Shown: positions 1,036 through 10,869 of the stretch, piece after piece
Layout of the letters: every line of letters begins with the position of its first letter
Numbering within the stretch: the stretch's first letter is position 1
From: Arenicola marina
Lineage: Eukaryota; Annelida; Polychaeta; Arenicolidae
Direction: 5' to 3'
Length of the DNA stretch: 64,000 nucleotides
Assembly (NCBI GenBank): GCA_964019135.1
Contig: OZ025256.1
Span: 434,001-498,000 of the forward strand
Translations under genes and position numbers: made by a program
Notes under the pieces: model-generated
Database searches by the model: none
Seen by the model: the letters and a program-made list of their open reading frames with translations, nothing else
Told to the model about the DNA's origin: nothing

Positions 1036-1306
1036 ACGAAGTCGCTGAAAGACGGTCACTTTTAAGATATTAACTTGTTTAATATTTGTACCAAAGATTA
1101 AAATTCTGGCTTTGCATAGGTCAAATGGAACAAAATCATTTCGTCATTTCTGAGTCGAATTACGCATGCAATTTTTAGTCTCTGCTGGGTACCTTCTTAC
1201 ACAACGTAAATTATTAAGGGACTGTTTGAAGATTGATCAATATTCGACAATTGTTTTTTATTTTTAATGTTTTTTCAGGAAAAACTGGCAATGCAATACA
1301 TAAAAC

Positions 1307-4300
1307 TCATACGCGGTTGAAAAACCCTATCAAACTACTCCATTTCATGTTAGAATTCTGCACACAAGTTGACAAATTATCTATCATGTATATTTGTCTA
1401 ATTCTGCTTAAGGCACCTGCTACACTGAGAGTTCCGTTTTTACATTTGGTGGCGTAAATATATTGTTTAATTAACAGTACCACGAGGTTTAAGGCTGCTG
1501 TTGTTTTCTCAGTGACTCCCAGCAAGACATGTTTTTTCTGTAATTAAAGATTTGAAGTCAAAGTCTAACCCAAGCTGTAGGACTGTGATAATCTTTTGCC
1601 AAAATTCTTTTACATGCTTACAGCGCCAGAACAAAATGCCCGATGGTTTCTATGTGAGAACTGCAAAAATAACACAAGTCGCTTTCAGCTATACCACACA
1701 TTTTCAGGTACTTAATTGTAGGTAAAATACGTTGCAAAAATCGATATTAGAAACTTCTAGCCCTTGTTTCAGTAGTTACTCTATAAGGTAGTAGGTAGAT
1801 CTTTTCCCACAGCAAGTTATCTATTGTCACGTGCAGGGTTTCTTCCCACTTATTTCTTCTCTCTTGATTAAACTCGACTTTCGTTACTAACTTCCAATAT
1901 GCAAAATTACAGCAGCGTTGCGCATCTATCAGTTCTGTCACACATATATCTAAGTTTCTATCAGTTGGCACTTTTGGGTAACAAGAACGTTTATACCAAT
2001 GATCTGTTGCTTGAGGCACTGATAATCAAAAAAGTTTAAATTAATATTATACCTCATATTGAAACTCTCTTGTGTCAGAGGTTTCCCCTGATCATCAAAC
2101 AAATCCATTATTAGAGTACAGTTGTTGGCAACAAGATGATTCTTAAAAGCTATTATATTACTATGTCTAAGATACTGTGAATTCCAAAAGGTATACTTCA
2201 TTTCGTTACCGTACAAATAGTCTTGTCGTTTATACTTTCCCCAGTCAGTTATGATTATTTTTCAAAAGCTGCTGAATGTTTTTTTAGACAATGCGATTAA
2301 CGACTTCGGATCTAACTGCCATAACAAAATGCTGTTCTTTTCACCTAAAGCATGTTTTGCAACACTCTGCCAGTTTCCGACCGATGTTTCCAGTCTCTTT
2401 ATCCACGATAAACGAAGCGCTTTAATAAAAAGGTCAACACATGTTACTTGAATACCCCCATCCGAATACTTCTGTGCGAGTTGCATCCTCGATATCTTAG
2501 AGCGTTTCCCATTCCACATAAAATTATTTATCCCCTTGCATGTGCGTGATTAGAGCATCTTGCGATGAGAGTATGGAAAAAATATGTATAATCTTAGGAA
2601 TTACCAACGTTTTGATGACCGTAACCTTACCGATTAAGGATAAACTTTTTAATTTATAAAGACGCAAGGTCTTTTTTATTTTGCCGAGCTTGCCCTCTAT
2701 GTTTTTCTTTAACATATGCTCCATGTTAACATCAAATTCTATACCCAATAGTCTGAAGGAAGTTACCCATTTAATTGGGTATTTTGTACCAATCGGCTCC
2801 ATTGAAAGTTTTTACTTTAACATAGTCTAAACGTTTTTATAGCTTCCGTTATCGACCTTCCATCATCCTTCATCAATAAAAAAAGTGTCGTCAGCATATT
2901 GCCCGAATAGCACTGTGGTTTCACCTATTTTAATACCCTCTATGAAATTGTTTTTTCTTAACTCCTCAGCAAGCGGTTCAACTGCAAGTATAAAAATATA
3001 CGGGGATAAGGGGTCCCCTTGTCGACATCCTCTACCTAACCCGAAAAATTGAGAAAAATGACCGTTATTTATCACACAGCTCTCAGCCCCCGTGTACAAA
3101 AGCCTAAAATATTGTAAAAATGTTTCAACAAAATTATATACCTCAAGTGTTTTGGATATGTACTCCCAACCTATCGTATCAAAAGCTTTTTCGAAGTGGA
3201 CCATAAGCAACACTCCTGCCTTATTGGTGTGATCAAGGTGTTCCATTACGTCATACACGAGCCGAGTATTTTCACCAATAAAACGCCCTTTGAGGAATCC
3301 CTTTTGGTCCGGACTGATTTTTTTCGATAAAACCTGCTTGAGTCTGTTTGCCATTATACCGGACAGTACCTTATAGTCACAATTTAACAGGGAAATTGGG
3401 CGTCAGTTTTTTAACAGATCTCTAGGCTTTCTGGGTTTAGGCAAGCATGTTATAACCCTTTGTCTTTGGGTAACCTTTTGTCGTTGATTCCATGCTTTAA
3501 GCTTCTGTATAGGAAGTGGCCTATATCTTTCCAGTAAAAATTTATAAAATTCACACGGAAATCCATCTGAGCCCGGCGACTTTCCATTTTGCATCTTTAA
3601 AACTTTTTCTTAACTTCGAATATTGTAATTTCTGAATCACATACATCTCTATCCATTTCACTTATTTTACATATGTTCTCATTCCTCAGGAAGCGGGCCG
3701 TTGCCTCGTCACTACGTAGCAGATTTATATATTTATATAGTGTTTTGTAAAAGTGACGTTGTTCCTTCAGAATATATCTCGCGGATGTCACTGAGTGTCC
3801 CTCTATATTTAACTTAGTTATTAGTTTTCTTACAAAATTTCGCTTCTCTAAGTTACAGAAAAACTTACTGGGTTTCTCGCCCTCCTCGTACACCTTTATC
3901 TTGGCTCTCATAGCGGCACCTCTTACCTTTATATATCTGAGGGCACACAGTTCACAATTTTCTTTTTATAGGAAGAATAAGATACGCTTTTCCCTCTGAT
4001 TCCTGATTTTAACATGTCTAAAAAGCCTGCGTCGTTGATTGATAGTTTTACATTGGGGTGTTCTAAATTTTCCCCGGGTAAGGCGTGCGACTGCAAAACC
4101 TGGTGTATGACGCCCATAATAGTCTGAATATAGTCATCGTCACTTAGCAGGGATACATTGAATTTCCAAAAACCCTTCCCTCTTTCTTCGCTAAAGGTCG
4201 ATACTGAAAAAGTTATGAGGGCGTGGTCAGATTTGTATCTTATCCCAATGTCTGTCTTATCCATTTCAACAAGTAAATCCTGACTAACCAAAAAGAAATC

Positions 4301-4846
4301 TAATCTGGCATACTTATGTGGTTTGCTTTCCATGAAAATCTCTTAGTGTCAGGGTATTGCGTTCTCCATGGATCCACAATTTCTAACTCTTCACACATCT
4401 CGGCTACCCTTTTGGATGCCTTTAAATTATTTTGCCTGATGTAACCGCGTGTATCGTTAGTAAAATCGTTGAAATACCTTCACAAAAGGCAGGGTTATCC
4501 ACATTTGGCCCATTAAATAGATATAATTGTTGTCGGTCGTTCGTTTAGAGACAAGCTAATTGCAACGTAGTAACCTTCCGGCTCCAGTTGCACTCTTTCA
4601 ACTTTACACTCAAAATTATCATTAAACAAAATAGCGGTACCTCTTGCGTTACTCTTATATATGCACTTATGTAGGCAATAGAATCCCAGTCTCTTTCAAA
4701 TAATTCAACATTTTCTGTGCTGCATTGTATGTCTTGTACACAGTAGATCGCATATTTTTTTCCTTCAACCAGCTAAATACATCCCTTTGCTTTTTCTTGT
4801 CTGTCAGGCCCCTTACATTAAAACTGGCTATGTTCAAATTGTTCAT
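1307..4846 (-). pseudogene. LINE ORF2: endonuclease and reverse transcriptase
   Basis: ORF2 starts at ATG 4,846 (MNNLNIASFNVRGL, the typical APE-endonuclease opening) and ends near 1,307 (about 1,180 codons if whole, normal for L1/Tx1 ORF2). The endonuclease end shows the SDH catalytic motif (YKSDHALITF, ~4,220). Reverse-transcriptase motifs follow: PDQKGFLKGR (~3,310), FEKAFDTIGWEYI (~3,190), GRGCRQGDPLSPYIF (~3,020) and YADDT (~2,890). Then come FRLLGIEFD (~2,750), a thumb/connection region, and a C-terminal CCHC-like motif CYFCSSHIETIGHF (~1,660). At least half a dozen frame changes or stops split it, so it is a fossil copy. Its product would nick target DNA and copy the element RNA in the nucleus. 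Confidence 0.85.
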
Positions 4847-5214
4847 GTTTAATTAATTGTACAGCACTTCCGTCTACTGTTATCCGCGATAAAACCTTTC
4901 GGCAATCAACCTTATATGAATCTGATTGTAGCATTACTAATGTGTTAGCATTCGCCAGTTTACCTTTAACGATAGCCACCAACGAGTAGATCTTAGCTAC
5001 GCTGGACCGTTGCTGACATCCACTCATGGTCCTGCTCGTGAAATGTACCAGACGGGGACCCATGCCTGGTGTCTCCTAGATATGCTACTTTTGGGTACAC
5101 ATGGCCGTTTAAAAAAGACCGAACGAACACAAACAGCTATTTGACGATAAATACAAAAACAAAGACCATTTAAGCTACTTGGCGGAATCTGGTGACGTTT
5201 CTAGTGAGATGTTC

Positions 5215-5292
5215 CAATTGTTCCTGTACCAATTGTTCCTGTACCAATTGTTCAATCACCAATTGTTCATTACACAAATTATTCATACACCA
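5215..5292. repeat. 15-bp tandem repeat at the ORF1 end
   Basis: About five units of a 15-bp motif (CAATTGTTCCTGTAC and variants) start at 5,215, 5,230, 5,245, 5,260 and 5,275. The array overlaps the ORF1 stop and lies in the ORF1-ORF2 spacer. It is likely a local slippage expansion inside the LINE. Confidence 0.75.
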
Positions 5293-6563
5293 ATTGCTGC
5301 CAGAGCCTCGATTGCTGAATCCACAGCCTGCTCAATCAGGTGGAAACGTCGCTGGCCCAGATTCTCGTGGCTTGAGCGACTCACGAAGACCACCAGATTG
5401 GTTTTCTTCCGGCGTTGAAGCAGGTATCGCATATGCCTCGACGCGCCGAGCTCCCCGTCGTCCTGGCCGCCCTCCGTGACGGCGTCTGGGGCGCGGGGGA
5501 TGACAGGCGGAAGGCTGCCGCGTTGTGGGGCGCCGCTGCCATGACCGGGTTGAGCAGCAGGCAGCGATAAACTTCTCTGACTTGAGCTATGTCCTTTACC
5601 TCTGCGTTGGATGCCTTGAAGGAACAGCCTGGCGCCTTCACCTCCGCCCCGTGGATCAGCGAGGGGGCGGTCCGCATGAGCTCCTCCTGCTCAGCCGGCG
5701 TCAGATGGAGAATGTCTCCGGGTGACGAGAGGGGGAGGGGGTTTCGCTGTTTTTTACCGTTTACAAATAATGTCTCATTCGTCATTTTAACATTTTGACT
5801 TTCTGCTGACCTGCGTTTTCTTTTACCTCTTCCACCCTCTCACTCATAGTTCTCCTACATTCGAGCACATATGCAGGCTAGTGTGGAGTAATTTTCTGCT
5901 TTTCGCGTCCTCTGGGCATTTTCCTGCCCATCTCTTTCTGAGTTTTGCGGCATTGAATACTCCCATTCGGTGCGCTCTTTCGATGTACGGCATAGCGCCG
6001 TTCCACCCGTTTTGCCGCAGTATACCTTCCGCGACAACCGAACAGTCCTCTGTCCCACTAACCTCTGCCACGTTGTGAATTAACACATTGTTTCTCATAG
6101 ACCTGGTTTTTAAGTCAGTAAGGTCCTTTTTTACCTGAGTAATCTCTTCGCTTTGCCTGATAACCATGCTCTTGAGCAAAGTTACTTCACCTTGTAAGTC
6201 TTTTGTTTCCTTTGCCGAGTTGGCGAGCAAACCAGAGTTCTCACCAACGTCTCCTTCCGGTAGCGAAAGCTTGCTGCTTAATCCATCTTGACCACTGATT
6301 GTATCCATAAACTTGTCTTGTTTGTCTGAGAGCTGATTCAGTTGGAGGTGTATTTCCTGCATTGACTTGGCCAGAGCGGTGACCGGCTCACTTGGCCCTG
6401 CCGCCATTGCTGCTCCTTTCCCTTCTTGGCCGATTGTATTATCGCTCAACTCCTCCAATTTTTCTTCAAAAACCTCTCGAATGTTCGTTCTCTTGTTCTC
6501 TAGTTCTTTACTAGCTGTTCTGTTTCGTTTCCTATTCTTTTTCGATCCTGTATTATTAGCCAT
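5284..6563 (-). pseudogene. LINE ORF1: coiled coil, RRM-like, IMPACT/UPF0029-like C-terminus
   Basis: ORF1 begins at ATG 6,563 (MANNTGSKKNRKRNR; the upstream GTG is not needed). A basic N-terminus is followed by a coiled-coil region (residues ~60-150) and an RRM-like core (NNVLIHNVAEVSG), as in L1 ORF1 RNA-binding chaperones. After frame changes near 5,840, 5,790 and 5,490 the C-terminus reads MAAAPHNAAAFRL, then GQDDGELGASRHMRYLL, then NLVVFVSR, then NLGQRRFHLIEQAVDSAI, ending at a TGA at 5,284-5,286. These blocks occur in the order seen in human IMPACT (SATHNIYAYRI, EDDGETAAGGRLLHL, VVVSRWYGG, LGPDRFKHI). I infer a UPF0029/IMPACT-type domain at about 5,290-5,645. At least three frameshifts make this copy dead. 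Confidence 0.7.
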
Positions 6564-6639
6564 GTGCACCTGATAAACGTTAAACTTTTGTTTAAATGAG
6601 ACACTTGGGGCAAAGCGATCTCACACGTCCGCCATGTAA

Positions 6640-7560
6640 GGTGCACGATATGACCAAAAGTCCGTCGCCGTAAAAATGAAAGATTGACGTTTTGAACATG
6701 GGGAGTCCCGTAGGGAATTTTCGGTCAACTCTGGAACCGGAAGTAAGCTAGAAACATTCTATATTATTTTACGGTCAAACAGGGGACCCCATGTGCCACA
6801 GAATGACGCCATTTGCAAATTTTGGTCATTTGTTTCTAATTTTTGACGACTTTTTTTAATGTTTTCATGTATTTTTAATGGACTTCGCAGACCTCTTTGA
6901 TATTCATATTTTTATGACCGGCTAGAATCCCAGATCGATATCTTCAACTTAGATATATCTAAATCGATATCACCACAGAAAAAGTGTTCAAGGTCATTTT
7001 TGTCGTTTTCGGAAAAACATAAAACAGCATTTTGCTCAAAGATGCGTAAGACGCATCAAAACGTGAACAATACATGAAAGATGAAAAATATGGTGTAGCA
7101 CCTTGTGAATCTTACCGAACGTCACTAATCGTAATATTAACTTAGACGCGTTCTAAGATTTTTTTTCTCAAAAAATCACCCGTGACTTTGACCTTTGACC
7201 GATTTTGCCCGTTAACGAACTTAGCCTTAGTTTTGACCCTAGGTACCTGTAGGCGAAGTATGACAACGCTAGCTGTGAGCTTTCGAAATTTATTGCGCGC
7301 GAACCGAAGAACAGAACCGAGTCATAGTATGACAATTTTCGTCTTAACAAACCGAACACACAGACATAATAGCACATGGGCCAGGGCCCCAATTTTGACC
7401 GATCGGTACCATCAAGAGGTACCAAATGAAATAATGCTTTTGAGAAAGCTTATTGCCTGTAGATTCCGAATATGCATGCTGAACATGCGAATCGTGAAGC
7501 TTTTCAGCAATTCAGTGCCAAAGCGGGGTAACCTATAACTTGTGTCTTAGATAATTTAGG
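6640..7560. repeat. DR1-carrying repeat family, copy in duplication A
   Basis: A non-coding repeat related to 30,770-31,540 and, more distantly, to 42,230-49,200 and 57,570-57,900. Shared marks are the GTCCCGTAGGG...AACCGGAAGTAAG segment, ACGCATCAAAA followed by TGAACAATA, a run of T/A, then TGACCTTTGACC (7,189-7,200), and an ATTTTCGTC-type end. TGACCTTTGACC reads AGGTCA-A-AGGTCA on the other strand, an ideal nuclear-receptor DR1 site. No protein is encoded; the 118-residue ORF at 7,182-7,538 is not conserved. Confidence 0.7.
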
Positions 7561-7844
7561 GCCTTTAGCGAAAAACATCATATTTCAATTGATCCACAAT
7601 ACTTCAAACCAATCTTTATTAAACACCTCCCTTTTAGCTAACAGTTATTTTAGAGGTATTCTCATTCTACTTTGGATTGCAATTGTAACAAGAGATGATC
7701 TTGATGGCCGAATATTACGTTTATTACATGAAATCCAGCCACATGCGTGAGAACATTTGGCAGCAATGCAGATTTTTAGAATGCGTTCATTCAAATATGG
7801 TGTAATTATTAAACGCATCACACTACCAGAGAGTGGTAATCCGA

Positions 7845-8890
7845 TAAGTATAATCATGCTGATGATAATACTGCAGCGGCTCAAGGTAAGGAGTTTAACA
7901 AGGTTAAAATAACTGTAGAGAATGCGTTATCGGAAATAACAAAGTGGTTCATCGACAAATACATGAAAGCGAACCCAAGTAAGTACCAGGCAATCATGTT
8001 TGAAAAGAGAAACGAATTAAATCAGCACAGATCGTTTTCGATTTCTGGAACAGAACTGGCAGCAGAACAGGAAGTAACATTACTAGGTATTCAACTGGAC
8101 GCTAGGGTAACTTTCGGCAACCATATATCAAGTTTATGCAAGAAGGCTGGAACAAGTCTCAATACTTTAGCTAGAGTTTCTAAATCAATGGATGTTGATA
8201 GCAAACTTGCGTTATTTCATTCTTTTATCCTTTCACATTTTAATTACTGTCCCGTTGTATGGCAATTTTGTGATATGAAAAATATGCGTAAGATTGAAAA
8301 GATACAGAAGCTGGCATTGAGGTATGTGTTTAATGACTTTAGATCAGAATACGCAGATTTGAGGAAGAGAGCGGGTATACCGTTGCTATATATTGAACGA
8401 TTGCGCTGCATATCATTAGAAGTTTACAAGAGTATCAACAAGATTGGGCACATCTTAAATGTTATGATAAATGATAAATGTTATCTTCATGACATTTTAA
8501 AAAATGGGCCAAATATATGTATGCCAGGTGTTAAGACAACAGCCTATGGCCATAATTCATTGAAATATCAAGGTAGCAAGCTATGGAACATGCTCAAAAG
8601 GAAACGAAGTTAGCCAAATCCGCCAAGGAATTTAAAACAACGCTGTCAACCTCGGATGTGTGCTTGTGTCAGTGTAATTCGTGCACATTATGTAACATAG
8701 CTAATGGGTAAGGTTTTATGAGATGCAAAGGTTGTTATATTATCATTGTTGTCATATGTACATATATCTCATTCGCTCATGTCATTTTATCATTGTCGGT
8801 CAATAGCACGTGTGCTAATGTTTATTGTTGACGTTTACATACAGACTTTTACATGTTATATAAAACTTTATCTTACCTTATCGTATCTTA
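7845..8890 (+). mobile_element. CR1/Jockey-like LINE, 5'-truncated tail
   Basis: A 5'-truncated non-LTR retrotransposon. It begins abruptly inside the reverse transcriptase at motif C and runs to a 3' end with short TCTTA-type repeats near 8,870-8,890. Copy B lacks it between about 31,760 and 31,780, where the flanking sequences are nearly joined, so it is an insertion private to copy A or was lost in B. Confidence 0.75.
7854..8613 (+). pseudogene. LINE reverse transcriptase C-terminal part
   Basis: The reading frame opens at HADDNTAAAQGKEF, the catalytic ADD of reverse transcriptase motif C, although the first ATG is only at 7,963. It continues with KANPSKYQAIMF, LLGIQLDARVTFGNHI, LCKKAGTSLNTLARV and LSHFNYCPVVWQFC, the connection and C-terminal signature of CR1/Jockey-group LINEs. 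A frame change near 8,600 ends the ORF at 8,613; the other frame continues with ETKLAKSAKEFKTTLS to a stop near 8,708, the usual end of such proteins. The fingers and palm and the endonuclease are missing (5' truncation), so it cannot be active. Confidence 0.8.
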
Positions 8891-10430: not shown

Positions 10431-10498
10431 CGTTTCTTGATTTTTAACTTTGCTCTTTTTCTTTACACGCAGACTTGTAAATGACTTCCCTGTTTCAT

Positions 10499-10869
10499 AC
10501 TATTTCAATGTAGTCCAGGCCCCGTACGCCAGTGGCCGGTCCCTGTTTCAGACTGGTTCAAGGCTTTCCAGGTCCTGTACATGATTGGTTGTTCCCTGTT
10601 TTAGACAGGTTCAAGGCGGTCCAGGCCCTGTACGCTATTGGTTGTTTCCTGTCTCAGACTGGTTCAAGGCGGTCCAGGCCCTGTACGCTATTGGTTGTTC
10701 CCTGTTTCAGACTATTTCAAGGCGGTCCAGGCCCTGTACGCTATTGGTTGTTTCCTGTCTCAGACTGGTTCAAGGCGGTCCAGGCCCTGTACGCTATTGG
10801 TTGTTCCCTGTTTCAGACTATTTCAAGGCGGTCCAGGCCCTGTACGCTATTGGCATAGCGCTCATCCTT
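10499..10869 (+). repeat. 53-bp minisatellite multiplying a splice acceptor (7 units)
   Basis: Seven exact-length 53-bp units start at 10,499, 10,552, 10,605, 10,658, 10,711, 10,764 and 10,817. Each unit contains the start of the tetraspan exon (AC-TGG/TAT-TTCAAGGCGGTCC... to GCTATTGG) followed by a pyrimidine-rich CCCTGTTTCAG acceptor. The last unit runs directly into the rest of the exon, so the array is a tandem duplication of the intron-exon junction itself. Copy B has four units (33,211-33,422). Confidence 0.85.

Follow-up and report, generated by a model that had tools for sequence, protein, structure and literature searches.

The window, by which we mean the whole stretch of 64,000 nucleotides of Arenicola marina DNA that was analysed, carries on its minus strand a decayed copy of a LINE of the L1-superfamily type (Table 1). 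Its outer limits reflect the extent of the alignment to L026, a relative in the same genome, and the start of its ORF1 was set by eye from the sequence and from that alignment. While ORF1 of the window copy is split over several frames, the matching stretch of L026 is a single open frame of 445 codons. An earlier note on this DNA had recognised four IMPACT-like blocks at the end of ORF1, with a frame change near position 5,490. The minus-strand translation contains all four: frame 5839-5381 holds APHNAAAFRL, and frame 5690-5283 holds QDDGELGASRHMRYLL, NLVVFVSR and LGQRRFHLIEQA. The frame change is borne out as well, since a profile of the LINE version of the UPF0029 domain finds the two halves of the domain adjacent and in the correct order in two frames. 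In L026, whose DNA is 91-96% identical, a single open frame runs through the region, so that the frame change is a lesion of the window copy, which on its sequence is evidently dead. The L1 affinity that the same note had proposed also holds: the ORF2 of L013 matches LINE-1 ORF2p (see below), and the reverse transcriptase (RT) of L026, which is of the window type, is 73% identical to that of L013. Scanned singly, frame 5690-5283 reaches 23 bits with Pfam UPF0029 over positions 48-107 of 107, short of the 27 bits set as curated cut-off, in a frame that holds only half of the domain; frame 5839-5381 gives no UPF0029 match up to E 1.

Where ORF1 ends, between it and ORF2, the window also contains a short tandem repeat (5228-5296) with 2.3 copies of a 31-base unit. 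A fragment of another LINE reverse transcriptase lies on the opposite (plus) strand at 7840-8613, with a frame of 257 codons and an RT profile match at 7852-8094 (iE 1e-5), and a minisatellite at 10486-10853 (53-base unit, about 7 copies) overlaps open frames of the plus strand.

Table 1. Parts of the LINE copy in the window, with the basis on which each was placed
Feature	Position	Strand	Basis
LINE copy, L1-superfamily type, decayed	1270..6644	-	blastn against L026, 91.3-95.6% identity, five blocks
ORF1 region, split over several frames	5283..6563	-	open frames 6620-5844, 5839-5381, 5690-5283
ORF1 N-terminus and heptad-like (possible coiled-coil) stretch	6105..6563	-	analogy with aligned ORF1s
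L1 ORF1p-type RRM and C-terminal domain, in more than one frame	5732..6104	-	RRM-CTD profile matches 6104-5937, 5943-5791, 5824-5732
UPF0029/IMPACT domain, N-terminal half	5498..5659	-	LINE-UPF0029 profile positions 2-55, 49.8 bits
UPF0029/IMPACT domain, C-terminal half, QDDGE motif	5295..5489	-	LINE-UPF0029 profile positions 54-119, 75.6 bits; Pfam UPF0029 E 8.3e-5
ORF2 reverse transcriptase domain	2737..3441	-	RT profile matches 3441-2869, 2823-2737; Pfam RVT_1 E 5.6e-27 (frame 3402-2863)

Architecture and spread of the UPF0029-bearing ORF1

Less decayed relatives were sought in the window's own genome (867 Mb), the only eukaryotic genome searched. All of the best 150 of 289 candidates from a six-frame UPF0029 search, the ones that were scored, exceed the curated cut-off (best E 1.1e-13), and counts from this search are lower bounds; one of these 150 belongs to the host's own IMPACT gene, as one of its exons (C10:33245131), and single checks covered part of the others. 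In ten open ORF1s from ten loci, Pfam UPF0029 scores 38.8-57.8 bits (cut-off 27; 41.7 bits in L026) in every case, as an IMPACT-like ORF1 tail predicts; since the ten were picked for a prior UPF0029 match, they reveal the nature of the open protein and not the frequency of the fusion. The match covers nearly the whole profile in eight of them, positions 3-89 in L015 and positions 1-94 in L024. No other Pfam family reaches its cut-off in the ten. Transposase_22, specifically, has no match in them and none in the genome, a silence of limited weight because the control genomes were likewise silent.

The remainder of the protein became apparent when a profile of 14 aligned ORF1s was compared with all solved structures. 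At profile positions 326-438 it matches the IMPACT homolog 6bqi (E 4.7e-12), and within positions 141-281 it matches LINE-1 ORF1p (2yko, E 2.2e-5; 2ldy, E 8.6e-5; 2w7a, only 0.074). From the positions of these matches, the L1 RRM and C-terminal domain (CTD) are in their usual place and the UPF0029 domain comes after them, the full order being a heptad-like stretch, the RRM, the L1 CTD and the 'ancient' (UPF0029) domain of IMPACT. In all 14 ORF1s the UPF0029 match begins 23-25 positions past the L1 CTD match and stops 1-9 residues short of the stop codon. The hydrophobic 3.5-residue periodicity of the heptad-like stretch varies among the 14, some of which show it clearly and others weakly. By profile, then, these ORF1s are assigned to the L1 type of ORF1p, with an RRM and an L1 C-terminal domain, and carry a UPF0029 domain fused in frame at the C-terminus. 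They share with L1 ORF1p (PDB 2yko, which we take to be the human protein, as we do the ORF2p structure entries) the RRM and CTD, a preceding heptad-like stretch and the position before an endonuclease-RT ORF2. L1 ORF1p ends soon after its C-terminal domain, whereas the present ORF1s add a UPF0029 domain of about 120 residues at this point.

Stretches of 6.5-7.3 kb were fetched around 19 UPF0029 places, and 18 of them contain an RT on the same strand, further downstream; none was found in the exception, L022. The long ORF2 frames of L012, L013, L015 and L021 match both endonuclease and RT families in Pfam, that of L026 RT only. Such an endonuclease-RT ORF2, downstream on the same strand, identifies the elements with a UPF0029-bearing ORF1 as LINEs, that is, non-LTR retrotransposons. 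In four of the 19 stretches (L011, L018, L021 and L028) the same minisatellite unit flanks the LINE on both sides, with periods of 40, 42, 28, and 72 (together with 143, its double), an arrangement like that left by insertion of a LINE within a tandem array.

The association also emerges from an independent start, in which the RRM-CTD of L026 served as the query and the best 150 of 896 candidates were scored. For 63 of these 150 places, a listed UPF0029 place follows on the same strand, at most 1.2 kb to the 3' side. Twenty places were fetched from the remaining 87, and the LINE-domain profile detects the domain in 19 of them; among the 19 it is split or in a frame other than that of the RRM-CTD in L039, L051, L052, L055 and L056, and the match is partial in L053. 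The UPF0029 domain was not found in L046, the sole non-carrier among the 20, which may be a truncated copy or a real case of absence. In all, open domains occur in 57 distinct places, with doubly labelled ones counted once (L009 = L001, L011 = L007, L025 = L008), and these form 21 clusters below 70% identity. The UPF0029 tail is thus, as far as these profile matches go, more general than the window copy alone could show. L034 and L035 were considered as exons of host IMPACT and rejected, their translations being by eye those of LINE copies of the L012 kind; a Pfam scan of one frame of L035 matched no family. Among the viral contigs searched, no relative was confirmed.

The domain also bears a trace of selection. 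Among the 1596 pairs formed by the 57 places, 54 have a dS of 0.1-1.3, with a median dN/dS of 0.26 (range 0.05-0.55), values that come from non-independent pairs and, at greater depth, include shortened domains. In the 11 pairs with dS 0.1-0.3, nine of which come from one group comparison (L014, L027 and L028 against L072, L073 and L085), dN/dS is 0.05-0.15, and L012 and L014, at a dS of 1.06, have a dN of 0.12 and a ratio of 0.11. The closest copies, by these ratios, show purifying selection, and the dN/dS values indicate that the UPF0029 domain was most likely maintained while the elements were active.

The open-access literature that we searched contains no report of a fusion between UPF0029 or IMPACT and a LINE ORF1; Repbase and subscription papers, outside that scope, may note it. 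Metcalfe and Casane (2014; PMC4120745) classified the ORF1s of 448 Jockey-superfamily elements, and the words impact, UPF0029, RWD and Tx1 are absent from the available text of that paper. Schneider et al. (2013; PMC3905857) distinguish three structural classes of ORF1p, and 'impact' does not occur in the available text of theirs. The roles of LINE ORF1 parts beyond RNA binding are poorly understood, and a selected fusion of UPF0029 to an otherwise ordinary L1-type ORF1p offers a direct handle on them. Conversely, the LINE ORF1 provides a second biological setting for the 'ancient' domain, for which no function is known.

Relation of the domain to IMPACT

Compared on its own with solved structures, the UPF0029 part of the LINE ORF1s matches 6bqi, presumably yeast Yih1, at E 1.7e-12, and TTHA1053, presumably a bacterial protein, only at E 0.24. 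The LINE-domain profile scores 51.7 bits with the 6bqi stretch, 40.2 bits with three joined exons of host IMPACT (a partial domain) and only 4.8 bits with E. coli YigZ, which is annotated as an 'IMPACT family member' and shares the DDG and A-x-H motifs. Because the scores are better against IMPACT proteins than against YigZ or TTHA1053, eukaryotic IMPACT seems the more likely source of the domain than a bacterial protein, a lead drawn from few references. A search for bacterial relatives of YigZ gave 80 loci, nearly all of them from enterobacteria judging by record titles.

The LINE ORF1 carries only the second domain of IMPACT and is thus no IMPACT protein: for the RWD domain, the ten open ORF1s gave no Pfam match at E 0.1. 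In common with IMPACT/Yih1 (RWD plus UPF0029; 6bqi) it has UPF0029 over nearly the full length and the motifs A-x-H and DDG, retained in 53 and 54 of the 57 places, respectively. It differs from IMPACT/Yih1 in the missing RWD and in the missing Y/F-G-G motif, which is present in 6bqi, host IMPACT and YigZ and occurs in none of the 57 LINE places, so that the original partner may have been lost.

It might be supposed that the domain is a pseudogene of host IMPACT. This reading was rejected, as the domain occurs in many places and in frame with the RRM-CTD; moreover, the IMPACT gene is a separate locus. There the domain is spread over several exons, whereas the LINE version is one open frame in many copies. 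An upstream exon of host IMPACT was sought by eye and none was recognised, and an RWD search aimed at this gene gave the loci L029-L032 but no progress beyond them. Between two of the host IMPACT exons lies a 41-base minisatellite of about 112 copies (L057:459-5033).

ORF2 types and probable exchange of ORF1

The UPF0029-bearing ORF1 precedes more than one kind of ORF2. That of L013 matches LINE-1 ORF2p (8sxt) with 389 bits over residues 19-1202, most of its length; the corresponding scores are only 62 bits for L012 and 60 bits for L021. The element type found in the window is, on these matches, assigned to the L1 superfamily. The non-L1 types are presumably CR1/L2-like, judging by motifs rather than by a reference tree. 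As a separate observation, ORF2 of L009 (2842-3735) starts with a PHD finger that falls just under the Pfam cut-off (PHD, E 8.9e-5), and the ORF2 starts of L015 (2520-5891) and L025 (3360-3806) look PHD-finger-like by eye; the Pfam scan of L015 shows no PHD up to E 0.01.

In 27 pairwise comparisons of L1-type elements (L026, L010 and L013) with nine others, the RT is 21-29% identical, the RRM-CTD 37-46% and the UPF0029 domain 33-48%. Within the L1 type the ranking is reversed, with 71-77% identity in the RT and 54-65% in the ORF1 modules. Since one ORF1 type precedes both L1-superfamily and distant ORF2s, with RTs that are far less alike than the modules, it appears that ORF1s have been exchanged between LINEs. 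L015, whose RT is 62% identical to that of L001 and whose ORF1 modules are 66% and 61% identical to those of L012, points to another exchange. Further genomic copies from the L013, L015 and L021 families carry the same RT at the expected offset with 98.8-100% identity (over 188 residues for L021). Because the pairing of ORF1 and RT recurs in them, the two are copied together as a unit and do not merely happen to lie side by side.

Maximum-likelihood trees of 12 elements, in which the RT of L001 was represented by that of L025 from the same family, agree for RT, RRM-CTD and UPF0029 on the main split of the L1 type from the rest. The branch between the two groups has a length of 4.4 in the RT tree, and of 0.40 and 0.54 in the trees of the two ORF1 modules. 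The RT tree is rejected by the RRM-CTD and UPF0029 data (AU 5e-7 and 5e-5), and the RT data reject both ORF1 trees; the AU test used 5000 resamplings, few for AU by the program's own warning. Beyond the main split, on which they concur, the two ORF1 modules agree less within the rest. The RRM-CTD tree has an SH of 0.24 and an AU of 0.03 under the UPF0029 data, and the UPF0029 tree is rejected by the RRM-CTD data (SH 0.02, AU 0.003), so either the modules need not always have moved jointly or short alignments mislead.

It is conceivable that there was no exchange at all, and that both LINE groups inherited the shared ORF1 from a common ancestor while the RT diverged faster. Such a history would fit with the low support of the RT tree near L001, L015 and L021 (bootstrap values of 25 and 47), and with data that come from one genome. 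However, a faster RT is at odds with its stronger conservation within the L1 type, the opposite of what is seen between the groups, and the data of both ORF1 modules reject the RT tree, which makes shared ancestry very improbable. Exchange of ORF1 among distant LINEs is the best explanation of the trees and identities. Domain-shuffled ORF1s of CR1/L2 elements, of the PHD and esterase types, likewise have extra ORF1 domains and possibly whole-ORF1 transfer between lineages, according to PMC4120745; the exchange proposed here differs from what is described there in that it would reach an L1-superfamily element.

Possible roles of the domain

What the UPF0029 domain might do for a LINE has to be judged against the little that is established for IMPACT. 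According to PMC7140605 and PMC5054600, the N-terminal RWD of IMPACT/Yih1 competes with GCN2 for GCN1 and thereby inhibits GCN2, and the ancient domain has no known function. In published work, the part of IMPACT/Yih1 that suffices to bind Gcn1 and the ribosome overlaps its linker, and the invariant features of Yih1 and YigZ sit in loops that share one side of the domain, which is suggestive of a binding face.

The explanation that we favour, with modest confidence, is that an L1-type ORF1p acquired a UPF0029 domain, that this ORF1 was exchanged between LINEs, and that the domain serves as an extra contact surface of the ribonucleoprotein particle (RNP). As in L1, ORF1p would coat the LINE RNA; the UPF0029 domain would add a further binding surface, one that keeps A-x-H and DDG. 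This surface would most likely touch RNA or the translating ribosome, and such a contact could help to assemble the RNP or to hold it on its own mRNA. We infer the mechanistic half of this explanation, because even for IMPACT no role of the UPF0029 domain has been established. If A-x-H and DDG belong to the one-sided binding face, as we infer, their retention makes one more RNP contact with RNA or the ribosome the most likely role. A contact of this kind would be likelier than control of GCN2, because no RWD, the GCN1-binding part of IMPACT, was found in the ORF1s.

The main rival, possible and clearly less probable, is that the domain is a structural extension only, one that has no host partner and makes the ORF1p oligomer, or the way it packs on RNA, more stable. 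The constant place of the domain in all 14 aligned ORF1s, at a nearly fixed distance from the L1 CTD and just before the stop codon, is what such an extension would lead one to expect. However, A-x-H and DDG are retained in most places, the published one-sided position of the invariant loops suggests a binding face, and the RRM-CTD and UPF0029 trees are somewhat discordant.

Rather unlikely, in our opinion, is that the domain imitates IMPACT, so that ORF1p binds GCN1 or the GCN1-ribosome complex and damps GCN2, and LINE proteins are still made under stress. The domain does score better with IMPACT proteins than with YigZ, and the inhibition of GCN2 by IMPACT through competition for GCN1 is known, as described in PMC7140605 and PMC5054600. 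However, that competition is ascribed to the RWD, which the ten ORF1s lack at the Pfam threshold given above; the Gcn1- and ribosome-binding region, according to published work, overlaps the linker, and Y/F-G-G is absent in all 57 places. Equally doubtful is a wider scenario in which LINEs captured a translation-control domain and ORF1p became a portable 'RNP plus ribosome/GCN1' cassette, swapped between superfamilies and aiding the translation and packaging of LINE RNA under the host stress response.

It is scarcely credible that the resemblance to IMPACT is due to chance or, as the earlier note had allowed for, that an ordinary L1 ORF1 CTD was mistaken for IMPACT: the window copy alone scores under the Pfam cut-off, but the ten scanned open relatives score over it, the UPF0029 match is not a misread L1 domain because the L1 RRM and CTD are matched separately upstream of it, and the UPF0029 part matches 6bqi by itself.
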